DNA from: an uncultured Desulfobulbaceae bacterium | GTDB lineage: Bacteria; Desulfobacterota; Desulfobulbia; Desulfobulbales; Desulfobulbaceae | Direction of reading: 5' to 3' | Assembly (NCBI GenBank): GCA_947259225.1 | Contig: CAMYLK010000016.1 | Location: 1-64,000 of the forward strand | Length of the DNA: 64,000 nt | In this document: piece after piece, positions 1 through 63,551 of the stretch | Layout of the letters: each line of letters starts with the position of its first letter | How positions within the stretch are numbered: the first letter of the stretch is position 1 | Notes under the pieces: model-generated | What the model was told of the DNA's origin: nothing | The model's database searches: none | The model's input: the letters and a program-made list of their open reading frames with translations, nothing else | Made by a program: the position numbers and the translations under genes

Positions 1-236
1 CATTTAAAAGAGTGTGAGTTTAGATTCAATCATCGTGATCAGGATTTGTACTTATTGCTCTTGAAAATGTTCAGAAAATATCCTCTTAACTAGTCTAGCC
101 CCTTTATTTTTACACACAACCATTTATTATCAATGCAACTTGCCATGATAAGTTGATAATTCTGGTATTTTCTGGCAAAGTTGACACTGGTCAATATCAA
201 GTCGTTTATAATTGATTTTTGTCGTTGGGGGAGCGG
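1..236. other. Non-coding region upstream of the integron integrase
   Basis: No convincing coding frame is seen. A TTGACA at 181-186 and TATAAT at 207-212 could form a promoter for the integrase, but the 20-nt spacer is longer than usual, so it is a weak call. A short inverted repeat (CAACTT...AAGTTG, 137-156) lies where an attI site would be expected, upstream of the integrase start. No attI consensus could be recognised with confidence, and no cassette is visible on this side. Confidence 0.4.
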
Positions 237-1220
237 ATGTCAACAAAAAAGAATGAAAAGCGGAAAATTCTGGAGGAGGTGCGTGATGTGATGCGCCTGC
301 ATCATTATTCAATTCATACGGAGAGGTCCTATTTAGACTGGATAAAGCGGTTTATATTGTTTCACGAGATGAAAAGCAGAAAAGACTTTGCAAGTGGTGA
401 GGAAAAAATAACGGTTTTTCTCACACACCTGGCAATCGATAAAAATGTGGCACCGGCAACACAGAACCAGGCGATGAATGCACTTGTGTTTTTGTACAAG
501 AAAGTGCTCAAAGTCCAACTTGACAAAGAGATTAACGCAGTACGTTCAATGAAAAAGAATAAGGTCCCAACGGTATTGAGCAGGGAGGAAGTTGGGGATG
601 TCCTTGCTGTTATGGAAGGTGTTCCTCAGTTAATTGCAAAGATTATATATGGAAGTGGTTTAAGGATCATGGAAGCTGTCCGTTTGCGGGTCCATGACAT
701 TGATTTTGAATATAAACAGATAATTGTTCGTTCAGGCAAGGGTGGGAAGGACAGGATTACAACGTATCCTTCCTCCTTGACACCGCTTTTGCAGAATCAT
801 CTTGAGAGGGTGAAAAAACAGCATGAAAGGGACATCGCCAATGGGTTTGGTGAGGTGTATCTGCCCAATGCCCTTCATCGTAAATATCGTAAAGCCGCAA
901 AAGAGTGGGGCTGGCAGTATGTTTTCCCTTCTCGCCGGATTTCAGTTGATCCGCGAAGTAAAAGAAAGGGCCGCCATCATGTGGACCCGAGTGTCATTAA
1001 CAAGGCAATCAAGGCCGCTTCACGCAAGGTCGGTATTGATAAACAAGTTACTCCGCATACGTTCCGTCATAGTTTTGCGACACACCTGCTGCAACGGGGG
1101 ACAGATATACGTACTATCCAGTCATTGCTGGGCCATAAAGATGTCGCAACCACAATGATCTACACGCATGTGTTAAAGCAAGGCGGCCAGGGGGTTACCA
1201 GTCCTCTTGATGATTTATAG
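237..1220 (+). CDS. intI: Integron integrase, IntI-type tyrosine recombinase
   Basis: Site-specific recombinase that captures and excises gene cassettes by recombining attI and attC sites. The phage-integrase SAM-like domain occupies roughly residues 10-95. The catalytic tyrosine-recombinase residues are Arg143 (GLRIMEA), His274 and Arg277 (HTFRHS), His300 (LLGHKD) and Tyr309. The stretch [20 protein letters not shown] is the extra IntI-specific segment that XerC/D lacks, so this is an integron integrase and not a Xer protein. The ATG at 237 is preferred over the TTG at 219 because GGGGGAG lies just upstream. The length of 327 aa is normal and all catalytic residues are present. No cassette array adjoins it in this window; attC sites occur only beyond 47 kb. 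A terminator follows. Confidence 0.93.
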
Positions 1221-3768: not shown

Positions 3769-5409
3769 TTAGCAGACGTATTTAATCTGGAGCCTTTCCG
3801 CTGCAGCAACGTCATCTATGCCAAGGGCATCAGACATGCCGATGGGCAATGTCTGGGAGCGGCCGAGCGGGGCCATGATCTTTTTCATCTCGGTCCTGAT
3901 TCCCATGAATGTATCCACAACCCGCTGGGCAACATCATCAGGATCAAGGCGCCTGAACAGCTTCTCGTTCTGGCTGGTGATACCTTTAGGGCACAGGCCG
4001 ACGTTACAGACGTTACAACGGTTCATTTCATTGCCCAGGCAACCGGCGCTGGTCTGCATGATGTATTTACCTATATGGACACCGGAAGCGCCGAGCATGA
4101 TCAGGCCCATGCCGTTCTGGGTCACATTGCCGTTCTTGCCGACACCGCCGGCAGCGAACAGCGGAATCTCGTTCTGGCGGCCCTGGGCAACCAGGTCGAG
4201 GTAACATTCACGCAGGTTGGATGCGATGGGATGTCCTGTCGCGTCCATGCTGACGTTGTAAGCTGCGCCTGTACCTCCGTCCACACCGTCTATGAGCAGG
4301 GCGGAAGCATAGGGGTTGCGCACCAGGTTGTTCAGGACGGACTTGGCTGAAGTGGATCCCGAGATCTTCGGATAAACCGGTACCCGGAAGCCGAAGGCCA
4401 TAGACAGGGTCTGGATCATCTTCATGACGCTTTCCTCGATGGAATAGAGCGTCTGGTGAACAGGCGGCGACGGCAGGTCAACGCCTTCGGGCACACCGCG
4501 CAGACGGGCGATCAGCTTGGACACCTTGAACCACATGAGCAGGCCGCCGTCACCGGGCTTGGCGCCCTGGCCGTACTTGATCTCGATGGCTGCCGGGTCA
4601 CACTGCATTTCCGGGATTGCCCGGATAATCTCGTCCCAGCCGAAATAACCGGAAGCGATCTGCAGGATAATATACTTGAGGAACGGGCTTTTCAGTACCC
4701 ACGGCGGTACACCGCCTTCACCGGTGGCCATGACAACGGGGATGCCGAGCACTTCGTTGCAATAGGCAACACCCTGCAGGAGGCCGAGCCACATATTTGG
4801 CGACAGGGCGCCGAATGACATGGAACCGATGATAAAGGGGAATATCTCCCGGGTGGGTGGAATCCACTCGCCTGCAGCCTTTCGCCGGAGGAATTCCTCA
4901 GGCGAAAGAACACGGCCGAGAATGGTATTGGTGTTGAATTCGTGCCGCCCCGCATCAAGGGCCGGGTCGGTGAGCATGGATATTCTGTTGAAAACGATCT
5001 TGTCCAGGATGGTCCGGCCGGGCAGGTTGCGTCGGCCGCCGCGCTTCCAGGCATCACCCTTCTGGTGCATGTGGAAAAGCGAACGGTTTTCGTTGATGTT
5101 GGGCTCCGGGCCGATGGCCTCGTTGGGGCAGACCATGGAGCACATGCCGCAGCCGATGCATCTGTTTTCTATGACCGTTTTCTGCCTGATCCCGACAAAG
5201 GTCCGGTAATCGCTGCCCCTTTTTTTCTTGAGGATATCAAGTTTTGGCATTCTCTGCCGCCTGTATGTCAGGTATATGGCCTGAACAGGGCAGACGGAGG
5301 TGCAGCGGCCGCAGAGGGTACAACGGTCCTCGCGGTGCTTGATAATCCAAGGCAGGTCGTGATAGGTTAAGCTGCTTGGGGTAGTATAAATTGATCGAAC
5401 TGAGACCAT
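3769..5409 (-). CDS. gltB: Glutamate synthase central FMN/ferredoxin subunit (archaeal-type GltB2)
   Basis: This is the synthase module in which FMN and a 3Fe-4S cluster reduce the 2-iminoglutarate intermediate to glutamate. The N-terminus has two ferredoxin motifs (Cys30, 33, 36 and 40 in CTLCGRCTSVC, then CIGCGMCSMVC). The FMN-binding TIM-barrel domain follows (GEGGVPPWVLKS, KYGQGAKPGDGG, DGVDGGTGAAYN), and then the Cys-rich cluster segment CNVCNVGLCPKGI. The length of 546 aa matches stand-alone archaeal-type GltB2 rather than the 1500-aa bacterial GltB. The ATG at 5409 lies inside the end of the upstream gene (43-bp overlap) and has AAGGAG before it, so the two are probably translationally coupled. 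Confidence 0.92.
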   Translation of the reverse strand: MVSVRSIYTTPSSLTYHDLPWIIKHREDRCTLCGRCTSVCPVQAIYLTYRRQRMPKLDILKKKRGSDYRTFVGIRQKTVIENRCIGCGMCSMVCPNEAIGPEPNINENRSLFHMHQKGDAWKRGGRRNLPGRTILDKIVFNRISMLTDPALDAGRHEFNTNTILGRVLSPEEFLRRKAAGEWIPPTREIFPFIIGSMSFGALSPNMWLGLLQGVAYCNEVLGIPVVMATGEGGVPPWVLKSPFLKYIILQIASGYFGWDEIIRAIPEMQCDPAAIEIKYGQGAKPGDGGLLMWFKVSKLIARLRGVPEGVDLPSPPVHQTLYSIEESVMKMIQTLSMAFGFRVPVYPKISGSTSAKSVLNNLVRNPYASALLIDGVDGGTGAAYNVSMDATGHPIASNLRECYLDLVAQGRQNEIPLFAAGGVGKNGNVTQNGMGLIMLGASGVHIGKYIMQTSAGCLGNEMNRCNVCNVGLCPKGITSQNEKLFRRLDPDDVAQRVVDTFMGIRTEMKKIMAPLGRSQTLPIGMSDALGIDDVAAAERLQIKYVC

Positions 5410-47486: not shown

Positions 47487-47593
47487 GTCTTTCCTTCCAG
47501 GTTCTTTGGTACCGGTCATTTTTTGTACAGTTCACAACGGAGCTGACTCCGGATTTCAATGATTGAAAAAAGTGGACGTTAAACGGATTCGGC

Positions 47594-47905
47594 TCAAGTG
47601 TTCTGCTGGGCCTTTTTCTGCCTTTTTCGTATGAGCCAGATAATTCCAAGAATGAGAAGAACCGGATAATACAGGCATAAGGCCACGAAATACAGAAGAG
47701 CCAGCAAAACGTACAGCATGTTGCCGTCGTAAGCAATACGATCCCCAAAAACAGAACAGAGCCAGAGAGTAATCAATGGAATAGCAACAAGAGCAGCCGC
47801 TCGCCAACCTCGCCTCAGAACGTAAGCAGCGGTAATTGTCAGAGCAATGCCATACACCGGAAGAAATGTGCCCACGAGTTGCAAAATTCTGCCAGTATAA
47901 CTCAT
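47594..47905 (-). CDS. Small membrane protein, likely integron cassette gene
   Basis: 103 aa with three predicted helices (LQLVGTFLPVYGIALTITAAYVL, AALVAIPLITLWLCSVFG, LYVLLALLYFVALCLYYPVLLILGII) and a basic tail (RKRQKKAQQ). Not recognised. Its ATG is 23 nt after the R' core (GTTGAGC) of the attC site at 47928-47985, the normal distance for the first gene after a cassette junction. RBS TGAGGAC. Confidence 0.75.
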   Translation of the reverse strand: MSYTGRILQLVGTFLPVYGIALTITAAYVLRRGWRAAALVAIPLITLWLCSVFGDRIAYDGNMLYVLLALLYFVALCLYYPVLLILGIIWLIRKRQKKAQQNT

Positions 47906-47927: not shown

Positions 47928-47985
47928 GCTCAACGATAGGCATAAGGCGTGGCTTTGGCTATCCCACTTGATGCCATTGTTGAAC
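47928..47985 (-). other. attC recombination site of an integron gene cassette
   Basis: Read on the minus strand: R'' GTTCAAC, L'' AATGGCATCAAG, a GTGG...CCAC-type centre, L' CTTATGCCTATC, R' GTTGAGC. Both core boxes fit RYYYAAC and GTTRRRY. L'' holds one extra C relative to L' (GGCATCAAG against CTTATGCC), which is the canonical extra-helical base that sets attC orientation. The length is 58 nt. Orientation agrees with the minus-strand gene 48081-49010 preceding it, as expected for a cassette. Confidence 0.75.
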
Positions 47986-48005
47986 ATTTTGTTTTTGGAT
48001 TTAAT

Positions 48006-48016
48006 GGGGTCTGCCC
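48006..48016. repeat. Short scar GGGGTCTGCCC
   Basis: TTTAATGGGGTCTGCCCACTATT, member of the scattered GGGGTCTG group, lying 20 bp from the attC at 47928-47985. Confidence 0.4.
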
Positions 48017-48080
48017 ACTATTGACTCACCGGTACAACAAGGGCATTATTTGGCTGAAATCAAATATGATGTCTCCCGAA

Positions 48081-49010
48081 TTATTTTTTTCGTTTTTTTC
48101 TGGAAGAACCGGACTTCAACTCTGCGATTGTGAAGAAGCCACCCTCATGCTCAAAGAGGGTGAATCGGGCGTGGACAAGAGGTTTGCCGTCAGAACCGGC
48201 ACTGATGAGTTCGAGTTCAAGCGGTTTTTCCTCCTCGTTTTTGACGAGAGAGAATATTGCGTCGGGTGTTTTGTCGGTTATGGCGGCAACTTTGGCAAGA
48301 GAACCGTCGTCAAGAAAGCTGAACGCCTCTCGGGGGAGAGATTCGCCCAGGTCTGCCGCGAGCATTTCCCCGAAAGAGGGTTCACGGAAATCCAACGCGT
48401 GTTTTCTCATCCGGTGCTTGCAGTCTTTAGGTTTCATGCGGGAAATCCAGTGGATAAAAGGCCATTGTTCAACGTGGTCAACCGTTTTTCGCTCCCATTG
48501 AATATTGTTGTCAAATTCCGCGGACGGAGGCGCGATTGGCGGCTCGGTTCCGCTTCCCCACCAACGCGTTACCGCGCAGGTTCGCCGCAGGATCGTTCCT
48601 TTTATACTGTACTGCATATACAGGTTGCCCTTGCGATCTCCGTACTCACCGTTGTTGACGTGGGCCTTTGTATACGGAACTGCAATCGGACCAAGAGTTC
48701 CGCCATCCACAAGCGAATCAGTGTGACCGTCACATTTGTCGCAGTACTGAATTACGGATCGGGCAGCAGGAGGCGTTATGCCCTTGGAAAAGAGGAGGGT
48801 GAAGGTCTCCGTACGGGAGAACGTCTGGTCCGGGGGAATTTGCCAGATGGGCTTGCCGGTAATAAGGTCCGTGATTTGCCGCAGAGGTTGCGGCTCAGGG
48901 TTGTGTATCTTTGTCCTTTTCCACAGTGCTGAGAATCCTTTGTTGTTGTAATCCTGCTCACGCTTTCTCGCTTCGACTCCAGTGATTTTCGACCATTTTG
49001 AATCTGGCAT
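48081..49010 (-). CDS. Protein of unknown function (309 aa), probable cassette gene
   Basis: Not recognised. It is rich in charged and aromatic residues, without signal or membrane segments. CDKCDGH may bind a metal. The stretch GTLGPIAVPYTKAHVNNGEYGDRKGNLYMQYSIKG lies mid-protein. The C-terminus is AELKSGSSRKKRKK. RBS AAGGAG before the ATG at 49010 supports this strand over the 327-codon plus-strand frame 47949-48932. An attC site follows it (47928-47985), so it may be a captured cassette. Confidence 0.65.
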   Translation of the reverse strand: MPDSKWSKITGVEARKREQDYNNKGFSALWKRTKIHNPEPQPLRQITDLITGKPIWQIPPDQTFSRTETFTLLFSKGITPPAARSVIQYCDKCDGHTDSLVDGGTLGPIAVPYTKAHVNNGEYGDRKGNLYMQYSIKGTILRRTCAVTRWWGSGTEPPIAPPSAEFDNNIQWERKTVDHVEQWPFIHWISRMKPKDCKHRMRKHALDFREPSFGEMLAADLGESLPREAFSFLDDGSLAKVAAITDKTPDAIFSLVKNEEEKPLELELISAGSDGKPLVHARFTLFEHEGGFFTIAELKSGSSRKKRKK

Positions 49011-49080
49011 AGGTCACTCCTTGCTTAACAGTTATCGGGTCATATATCCTGCTCGTATATCCACATTAAGGAGATTAATT

Positions 49081-49092
49081 GGGTCTGGTCCC
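49081..49092. repeat. Short scar GGGTCTGGTCCC
   Basis: Sits in ATTAATTGGGTCTGGTCCCTATTTACC, between the 309-aa gene and the Cys-rich lipoprotein. Same flanks (TTAA before, CTATTTA after) as the copy at 60154. Confidence 0.4.
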
Positions 49093-49134
49093 TATTTACC
49101 TGCAAGGGCTGATCCCTTTGTCTCGCACAAGAAT

Positions 49135-49614
49135 TTACATAGTCGGGGGGAGTATGCAATGAGCGGAGTCAGGATCGTTGAGTATATTGCCAAGCGGGCA
49201 GTGATTGGGAACCTTAATGCAGCGAGCCCGTTGGTCGTTCAAATGCTTACGGCAGTCAATGTGCTGAACCGTAAAGCTCTGGTTATTGCACTTTGGGGGA
49301 TCGACGCGCTCGTAGATATGGGTGCCATTCTGGTCACACCAATCGCCCCATTGCTCGAAGCGGTTGACACATGTCTTGTTCGAGCTTGTGAAAAGATCAA
49401 GGCAGCCAGCCGTGCTCGGGTCGTTGCCCGTGTCCTTGCTCTCCATGCCATCTAAAATGATGCCTGCGGCCTTAGACTGGGTCCTCGGTGAGCTCCGGAG
49501 GAGTTCGTCCCCTCTGACGGAGACGGGCTCTCCGGTCTTAGATGTGTTTGGCGAGCTTGAGGCACAGCTGGTTAGTATCAACATAGCGACGATCGAGATT
49601 ATTCGGTTCAGCAT
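49135..49614 (-). CDS. Cysteine-rich lipoprotein of unknown function (159 aa)
   Basis: Lipobox-type signal (MLILTSCASSSP) gives a lipidated Cys near residue 16. The mature part has many cysteines (AGCLDLF, KTCVNRFEQWGDWC, PKCNNQ, IDCRKH, RCIKVPNHC, HCILPP), probably disulfide-bonded in the periplasm. Strong RBS GAAGGAGGTGAATT. The IS3 remnant begins 12 bp upstream of its ATG. Family not recognised. Confidence 0.7.
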   Translation of the reverse strand: MLNRIISIVAMLILTSCASSSPNTSKTGEPVSVRGDELLRSSPRTQSKAAGIILDGMESKDTGNDPSTAGCLDLFTSSNKTCVNRFEQWGDWCDQNGTHIYERVDPPKCNNQSFTVQHIDCRKHLNDQRARCIKVPNHCPLGNILNDPDSAHCILPPTM

Positions 49615-50411: not shown

Positions 50412-50449
50412 AAAAAAAAACCGGGTTGCCTCAATAAAAGGCAACCCGG
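50412..50449 (-). terminator. Terminator hairpin of leader RNA copy 1
   Basis: CCGGGTTGCC / GGCAACCCGG stem (50440-50449 and 50421-50430) with loop TTTTATTGA, then a run of U from nine A residues (50412-50420 on the plus strand). Perfect stem, classical Rho-independent form. Confidence 0.85.
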
Positions 50450-50515
50450 CTGTCAACTCAAGACCCGTGGCTTTCCGTACCTACCTGAAAGTAGGGGTGG
50501 CTTTATCTTTATTTG
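50412..50515 (-). promoter_or_regulatory. Leader RNA copy 1: GEMM (cyclic-di-GMP-I)-like riboswitch with terminator
   Basis: Transcribed on the minus strand from about 50513. Conserved blocks in order: GATAAAGCCACCCCTAC, a hairpin (CCTAC/GTAGG), ACGGAAAGCCACGGGTCT, a variable part, then AGCCGGGTTGCC. This order and the AAAGCCACGGG and GCCGGGTTGCC blocks resemble the GEMM-I aptamer, but its usual GGCAAACC is GCCACCCC and GACGCAAAG is TACGGAAAG. The 5' arm of the following terminator is the final conserved strand, so ligand binding would be expected to prevent termination. Ligand is unproven. Confidence 0.6.
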
Positions 50516-53903: not shown

Positions 53904-53941
53904 AAAAAAAATCCGGATTACCTCGCTAAAAGGCAACCCGG
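53904..53941 (-). terminator. Terminator hairpin of leader RNA copy 2
   Basis: CCGGGTTGCC / GGTAATCCGG stem (53932-53941 and 53913-53922 on plus), two G-U wobbles replacing the G-C pairs of copy 1, followed by a U-run (eight A on the plus strand, 53904-53911). Confidence 0.8.
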
Positions 53942-54003
53942 CTATCACCATTGACCCGTGGCTTTCCGTCTCTACATACAAGTAGGGGTGACTTTATCTT
54001 TAT
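53904..54003 (-). promoter_or_regulatory. Leader RNA copy 2: GEMM (cyclic-di-GMP-I)-like riboswitch with terminator
   Basis: Same architecture as copy 1: GATAAAGTCACCCCTAC, hairpin CTAC/GTAG, GACGGAAAGCCACGGGTC, variable part, GATAGCCGGGTTGCC, then a terminator. The two copies align through their whole length, with differences that keep stems pairable. The base before the CACCCC block is T here and C in copy 1. Precedes the interrupted SpoIIAA-like gene. Confidence 0.6.
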
Positions 54004-60153: not shown

Positions 60154-60166
60154 GGGGTCTGAACCC
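60154..60166. repeat. Short scar GGGGTCTGAACCC
   Basis: Best copy of the TTAAATGGGGTCTGAACCCTATTTA motif, between the protease unit and the second transporter. Other copies at 48006, 49081, 53125 and 56170. Confidence 0.5.
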
Positions 60167-60189
60167 TATTTATTTCCAGCGAAAGTAGT

Positions 60190-63037: not shown

Positions 63038-63100
63038 ATTTAACGTTTGGGCTAAGGGGCTGGTGCGAAGCGCCGGTCACTCTTAAGCGATTTGTAATGT
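63038..63100 (-). other. attC-like recombination site
   Basis: Minus strand: R'' ACATTAC (one base off RYYYAAC), L'' AAATCGCTTAAGAG, centre GACCGGCGCTTCGCACCAG, L' CCCCTTAGCCC, R' GTTAAAT (perfect GTTRRRY). L'' GCTTAAG against L' CTTAGC leaves one extra base in L'', the canonical asymmetry. It lies immediately after the stop of the gene 63102-63494 and before the methyltransferase ATG at 63008, just where a cassette boundary should be. Confidence 0.65.
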
Positions 63101-63101
63101 A

Positions 63102-63494
63102 TTATTTATTGACCCATTCAAATGCTTCCTTTTTATTTTTAAATATACGTATTTCCTTGTGAGCTCTTTTTGCATAACTCCTATAAACTTCATACATTCT
63201 CGCAAGACCATATGCCAAGTTGGAACTGACAATCAATGCAAGCTTTCTATTGATTTCTTTTTGGTCAGTAGTTGAGGCAATGTTTCCAATAGTTTGTAAC
63301 CCTTGAGTAGTAAGTTTAATGCCAGTAATTTCAGTCAAATCAACTACTTCATTGTAACTGGAATAATCCGGGTGATTTTGAATATCTCTCTGATATTTCT
63401 GTATTGCTTCTATGAAGTCAATATCACGTGCCTCACCATCCCATGTTGTGATAATGAGTTGAGCTTTATTGTCTATATGATGGTTAGCTGGCAT
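63102..63494 (-). CDS. SpoIIAA/STAS-like protein, probable integron cassette gene
   Basis: 130-aa STAS/SpoIIAA-like fold: LIITTWDGEARDIDFIEAIQ, YNEVVDLTEITGIKLTTQGL, ALIVSSNLAYGLARMYEVYR, IRIFKNKKEAFEWVN. This is the kind of single-domain protein often seen alone in anaerobes and aquatic bacteria. It resembles the interrupted gene at 53429-53812. GTTAAGT (63509-63515) lies 14 bp upstream of its ATG and an attC-like site directly follows its stop. Confidence 0.8.
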   Translation of the reverse strand: MPANHHIDNKAQLIITTWDGEARDIDFIEAIQKYQRDIQNHPDYSSYNEVVDLTEITGIKLTTQGLQTIGNIASTTDQKEINRKLALIVSSNLAYGLARMYEVYRSYAKRAHKEIRIFKNKKEAFEWVNK

Positions 63495-63508: not shown

Positions 63509-63551
63509 ACTTAACAGTAAGATCACCAGTTCATCTGGTGCATTGTTTAGT
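63509..63551 (-). other. Possible short attC-like site
   Basis: Minus strand ACTAAAC (R'' with one mismatch), AATGCACCAG / CTGGTGATCTTACT stem, GTTAAGT (R', matches GTTRRRY). At 43 nt it is shorter than typical attC sites and the L boxes are poor, so it may be coincidental. Confidence 0.3.

Follow-up and report, generated by a model that had tools for sequence, protein, structure and literature searches.

We propose that an orphan gene and the attC site that closes it, together about 1.1 kb of the window (the whole 64,000-nt stretch of DNA analysed here), are probably a single cassette (a SALIN) that lies in the chromosome outside any integron and was most likely inserted there by the integrase IntI at an attG-like site. 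The site, at positions 47928-47985 on the minus strand, is confirmed by its box anatomy and by a box/pairing scan as a genuine attC at the end of one cassette, and is also the top covariance match in the window. The gene and boundaries upstream of it, a second, similarly built unit and the distribution of attC sites in related genomes all bear on how it came to lie there.

Anatomy and scores of the attC site

On the minus strand the site consists of an R'' box GTTCAAC (47985-47979) followed by the UCS AAT, an L'' box GGCATcAAG (47975-47967) with an extra-helical C at 47970, a 20-nt middle or loop, an L' box CTTATGCC (47946-47939) followed by the UCS TATC, and an R' box GTTGAGC (G^TTGAGC, 47934-47928). 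The R'' and R' boxes are complementary at six of seven positions and have the RYYYAAC and GTTRRRY forms, and L'' pairs with L' CTTATGCC, with the extra-helical base (EHB) 8 nt beyond R'', the distance also seen in 26 reference attC sites. The spacing R''-N8-EHB-(C/A)AG and CTT-N9-GTTRRRY is that of attC sites adjacent to intI, and the box geometry, the EHB position and the closing C/GTTRRRY all agree with 26 attC sites from real integrons; the variable stem is short and weak. The claim of the earlier note that R'', L'', L' and R' are all present, with the extra-helical base in L'', is thus borne out, on the minus strand. The same note placed the site in the orientation of the preceding gene, which is also the case once strand and gene are corrected: the EHB in L'' and the score of covariance model R1 (19.7 bits on the minus strand vs 2.2 bits on the plus strand) assign the site to the minus strand and reject a plus-strand reading, and the preceding gene is therefore 48081-49010(-).

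The box/pairing scan, which looks for R and L boxes that can pair and for an extra-helical base, gave this site a score of 29.5, compared with 21.5-26.5 for the positive controls (two R388 attC sites and one class 1 cassette attC; R388 and pNDM33-1) and mostly 21-31 for attC sites beside other intI genes. In 832 kb of sequence from this genome the highest score was 27.5, below that of 47928-47985, and when the entire window was shuffled 600 times with its dinucleotides preserved, one shuffle attained 29.5. Across 80 loci of related integrases the scan returned 66 matches upstream of intI on the opposite strand, which is the expected side, 32 upstream matches on the other strand, of which many are the same palindromes in reverse, and just seven matches downstream of intI, although more sequence is available there. 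Near intI in one relative (locus L053, position 14750, genome G050) the motif scan also recorded a minus-strand attC-like site with a box score of 26.5.

The site 47928-47985 was kept out of both covariance models, R1 (built from 21 sites) and R2 (built from 150 R1 matches), and their training sites came from 80 named loci together with plasmids R388 and pNDM33-1, because the motif scan of the relatives' intI flanks had given few sites, partly since many contigs break at the array. With R2 and filters off, the site is the top match in the window at 19.4 bits and E = 0.025 per 64 kb; scaled to the 4.28-Mb genome this corresponds to about 1.7 expected matches, so that the covariance score alone is borderline genome-wide (not significant). 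Covariance searches with the default speed filters miss the site, and the fold of its strand by itself is unexceptional (z -1.42 and -0.70).

The cassette gene, its neighbours and a second unit

The gene that the site follows, 48081-49010(-), encodes a 309-aa orphan protein that belongs to no family in Pfam, NCBIfam, PHROGs or PADLOC. Searches of 258 genomes from the order, a 395-genome sample of the phylum, plasmids and phages gave no relative, and those of GTDB species genomes and viral contigs no close one. Cassette genes commonly lack known relatives, and integron cassette genes begin shortly after a GTTRRRY. Here a GTTAAGC (G^TTAAGC, 49023-49029, minus strand) lies 13 nt ahead of the start codon and is followed by AAGGAG and by the ATG at 49010. 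As no attC is built around it, this GTTAAGC is a bare junction, and the two boundaries together delimit a putative integrated cassette of about 1095 nt (47934-49028, minus strand). Six of the 49 main genes of the window have a GTTRRRY no more than 40 nt ahead of the start, and four of these six directly flank the two attC sites described here. This context, a gene in the same orientation with GTTAAGC before its start, strengthens the attC call. The stop of the gene lies 95 nt before R'', a long gap given that most attC sites in the family are within 7 nt of a stop. Short repeats of the GGGTCTG type occur at 48007-48022, 49081-49096 and 60155-60170 (plus strand), two of them flanking the 309-aa gene, and are not clearly above chance (8 vs a shuffle mean of 3.4, with six of 100 shuffles attaining 8).

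On the other side of the site, a 103-aa membrane-protein-like ORF (47594-47905, minus strand) has its ATG 22 nt downstream of R', and its only homologues are marginal (E 0.001-0.008). This ORF and the minus-strand neighbour beyond the cassette, 49135-49614, are both small and without known family. A candidate decayed attC after the 103-aa gene (GTTTAAC...GTTGTGAAC, about 47535-47585) was rejected at a best local score of 0.6 bits, and the whole-window R2 scan with filters off recorded no further attC within about 4 kb of 47928-47985 on either side. No relative matches the flank at the DNA level, and no empty site was found. The same minus-strand gene run carries two c-di-GMP-I riboswitches (50437-50511 and 53929-54002, minus strand; 50.1 and 41.6 bits), 3.4 kb apart.

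A second, weaker attC-like site is located at 63038-63100(-), with 16.2 bits in the R2 window scan with filters off. Its L boxes are good and include an extra-helical T, its R'' is a degenerate ACATTAC and its R' is GTTAAAT. The 130-aa SpoIIAA-like gene that precedes it (63102-63494, minus strand) has its stop 1 nt before the attC and its start 14 nt after GTTAAGT (63509-63515, minus strand), the upstream boundary of this second cassette. Both cassette starts, at 49 and 63 kb, read ACTGTTAAG. The gene is a G+C outlier, with 34% overall and 27% at third positions in a region near 48%. The two attC sites are on the same strand, 15 kb apart, and ordinary genes, such as those for a superoxide dismutase and a citrate-transporter-family protein, lie between them.

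The integrase and attC sites elsewhere

The integron integrase of the window, IntI (219-1220, plus strand; TIGR02249, 449 bits), is 45% identical to IntI1 and intact, with its catalytic residues and IntI-specific region conserved. It is 47 kb from the attC site at 47928-47985 on the same contig. Because base 1 of the window is also base 1 of the contig, only 218 bases of the attI/cassette side of intI are visible, and the R2 scan found no attC in these bases (1-218), where the contig begins. In relatives, 10 of 28 plus-strand intI matches are likewise within 1 kb of a contig start, as would be expected if assemblies break at cassette arrays.

Contig C12 of this genome carries a clear attC (4352-4440, plus strand, 29.6 bits) and, 845 bases on, a weak one (5285-5395, plus strand), both directly following a gene stop, and the pair could be a two-cassette CALIN. 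A further match in this genome, C2:150888-150994 at 18.3 bits, shows no clear R boxes. Among 45 genomes of the family, R2 matches to attC are present in 23 and are often dispersed. G103, a genome in a single contig, has intI at 0.215 Mb, an attC at 0.211 Mb and two other single attC sites at 3.00 and 3.57 Mb (L206 4723-4770 and L207 4911-5014), about 2.8 and 3.4 Mb from intI; G010, also in one contig, has an attC match and no intI. These two genomes show that assembly breaks do not generally explain lone attC sites in the family.

Origin of the cassette and comparison with known systems

The substrate of IntI is the bottom strand of attC in its folded form, which it recombines at G^TT, and a circular cassette inserted into a secondary site ends up between the junctions target-G|TT-cassette and attC-G|TT-target. 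The junctions at 47934-49028 have the arrangement of just such an insertion. We propose that the cell's IntI would have bound the folded bottom strand of the attC of a circular cassette and, cutting at G^TT, inserted the cassette at a secondary, attG-like site. The ACTG of the target would then have come to abut the TTAAGC of the cassette at one junction and the last G of the attC would abut the TTGAGC of the target at the other, and before insertion the site, without the cassette, would have read ...CCCGATAACTG/TTGAGCTCTTC... We infer IntI as the agent, the pre-insertion sequence and any present mobility of the unit. Cassette insertion at attG sites is attributed to Loot et al. (2024) in the papers that cite that work (PMC11023631, PMC12901181 and PMC12444791).

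In favor of insertion we counted the geometry and scores of the attC, the strand bias, the GTTRRRY starts, the orphan 309-aa protein, the G+C outlier of 130 aa, the intact IntI, the scattered attC sites of G103 and the published attG insertions, and against it the borderline genome-wide covariance score, the misses with filters, the 95-nt gap and the lack of an empty site. This last point is why an alternative stays, namely that a former cassette array (a decayed CALIN) formed or was rearranged here and has lost all but one or two of its attC sites, which is conceivable and on the unlikely side. The small neighbors of unknown family (47594-47905 and 49135-49614), the 103-aa gene that starts after R' much as a next cassette would, and the other attC on the same strand are what an array remnant might leave, but nothing resembling an attC is present within about 4 kb on either side, with 0.6 bits at best after the 103-aa gene, the GTTAAGC at the start of the cassette has no attC upstream, and the superoxide dismutase and citrate-transporter-family genes separate the two sites.

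It is very unlikely that 47928-47985 is a chance look-alike, an imperfect intergenic inverted repeat with no integron history. The borderline covariance score and the unexceptional fold would fit this, and lone attC matches are a recognized source of false positives (PMC9024848), but its scan score is attained in one of 600 shuffles and nowhere in the 832 kb of the same genome, the strand asymmetry is strong, a GTTAAGC boundary precedes the upstream gene and the whole plan is repeated at 63 kb. A transcription terminator or some other hairpin of the flanking operon would likewise be an intergenic inverted repeat, and a T-rich stretch does follow it on the plus strand, but the flanking genes are both on the minus strand, which has no T run after the site, a terminator scan does not report it, and the imperfect stem, the 20-nt loop and the match of the boxes to attC make such an element extremely improbable. 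We retain the insertion of a single cassette as the best explanation.

As to the class of the locus, the earlier note had suggested a CALIN or a relocated cassette, and it is the relocated cassette that is upheld, in the form of one cassette-sized unit between GTTAAGC (49029-49023) and R' (47934-47928). A CALIN is rejected for this site, since IntegronFinder 2.0 reserves that class for two or more attC sites (PMC9024848), these have to be clustered, and the window holds just one other plausible site, 15 kb away. The nearest other match below E 1 is 11 kb from 47928-47985, the nearest plausible one 15 kb and intI 47 kb, and the locus thus has exactly one attC and neither a further attC nor intI within about 4 kb, which is what defines a SALIN. 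Two attC sites 15 kb apart accordingly represent two single-cassette insertions rather than a CALIN. Read in this way, the window would provide a natural case, in a lineage represented by draft genomes, of cassettes outside arrays with an intact integrase in the same contig, as the attG work predicts. It is doubtful, and we think rather unlikely, that the IntI of this family routinely scatters single cassettes chromosome-wide via ACTGTTRARY-like targets, with much of the cassette pool outside arrays and missed by tools that need two attC sites; should dispersed single cassettes prove common in the family, counts from clusters of at least two attC sites would understate the number of integron-delivered genes.

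Compared with the attC sites of intI-adjacent arrays (R388 dfrB2, Thiobacillus, Verrucomicrobia and Geothrix), 47928-47985 shares the box order, spacing, EHB and R' form, and differs in its R boxes (GTTCAAC/GTTGAGC, against the more usual GYCTAAC/GTTAGGC), its short weak variable stem and its lack of neighbors. With a CALIN it shares attC without a neighboring integrase, whereas the clustering of at least two attC sites that marks a CALIN is absent from the window. It resembles the attG insertions of Loot et al. (2024), as these are described by the citing papers, in that a complete cassette lies in ordinary chromosomal DNA with a presumed G^TT cut and no apparent attI or attC as target, the difference being that those insertions were shown by experiment and the event here is deduced from sequence. 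The closest likeness is to a SALIN, the term being used as in PMC12690207, with one attC, one cassette gene and no integrase in the neighborhood, although here there are two such units, 15 kb apart, and the contig also bears an intact intI 47 kb from the first. Stray single cassettes are a known kind, and the locus at 47928-47985 is a new case that is ordinary for its kind.
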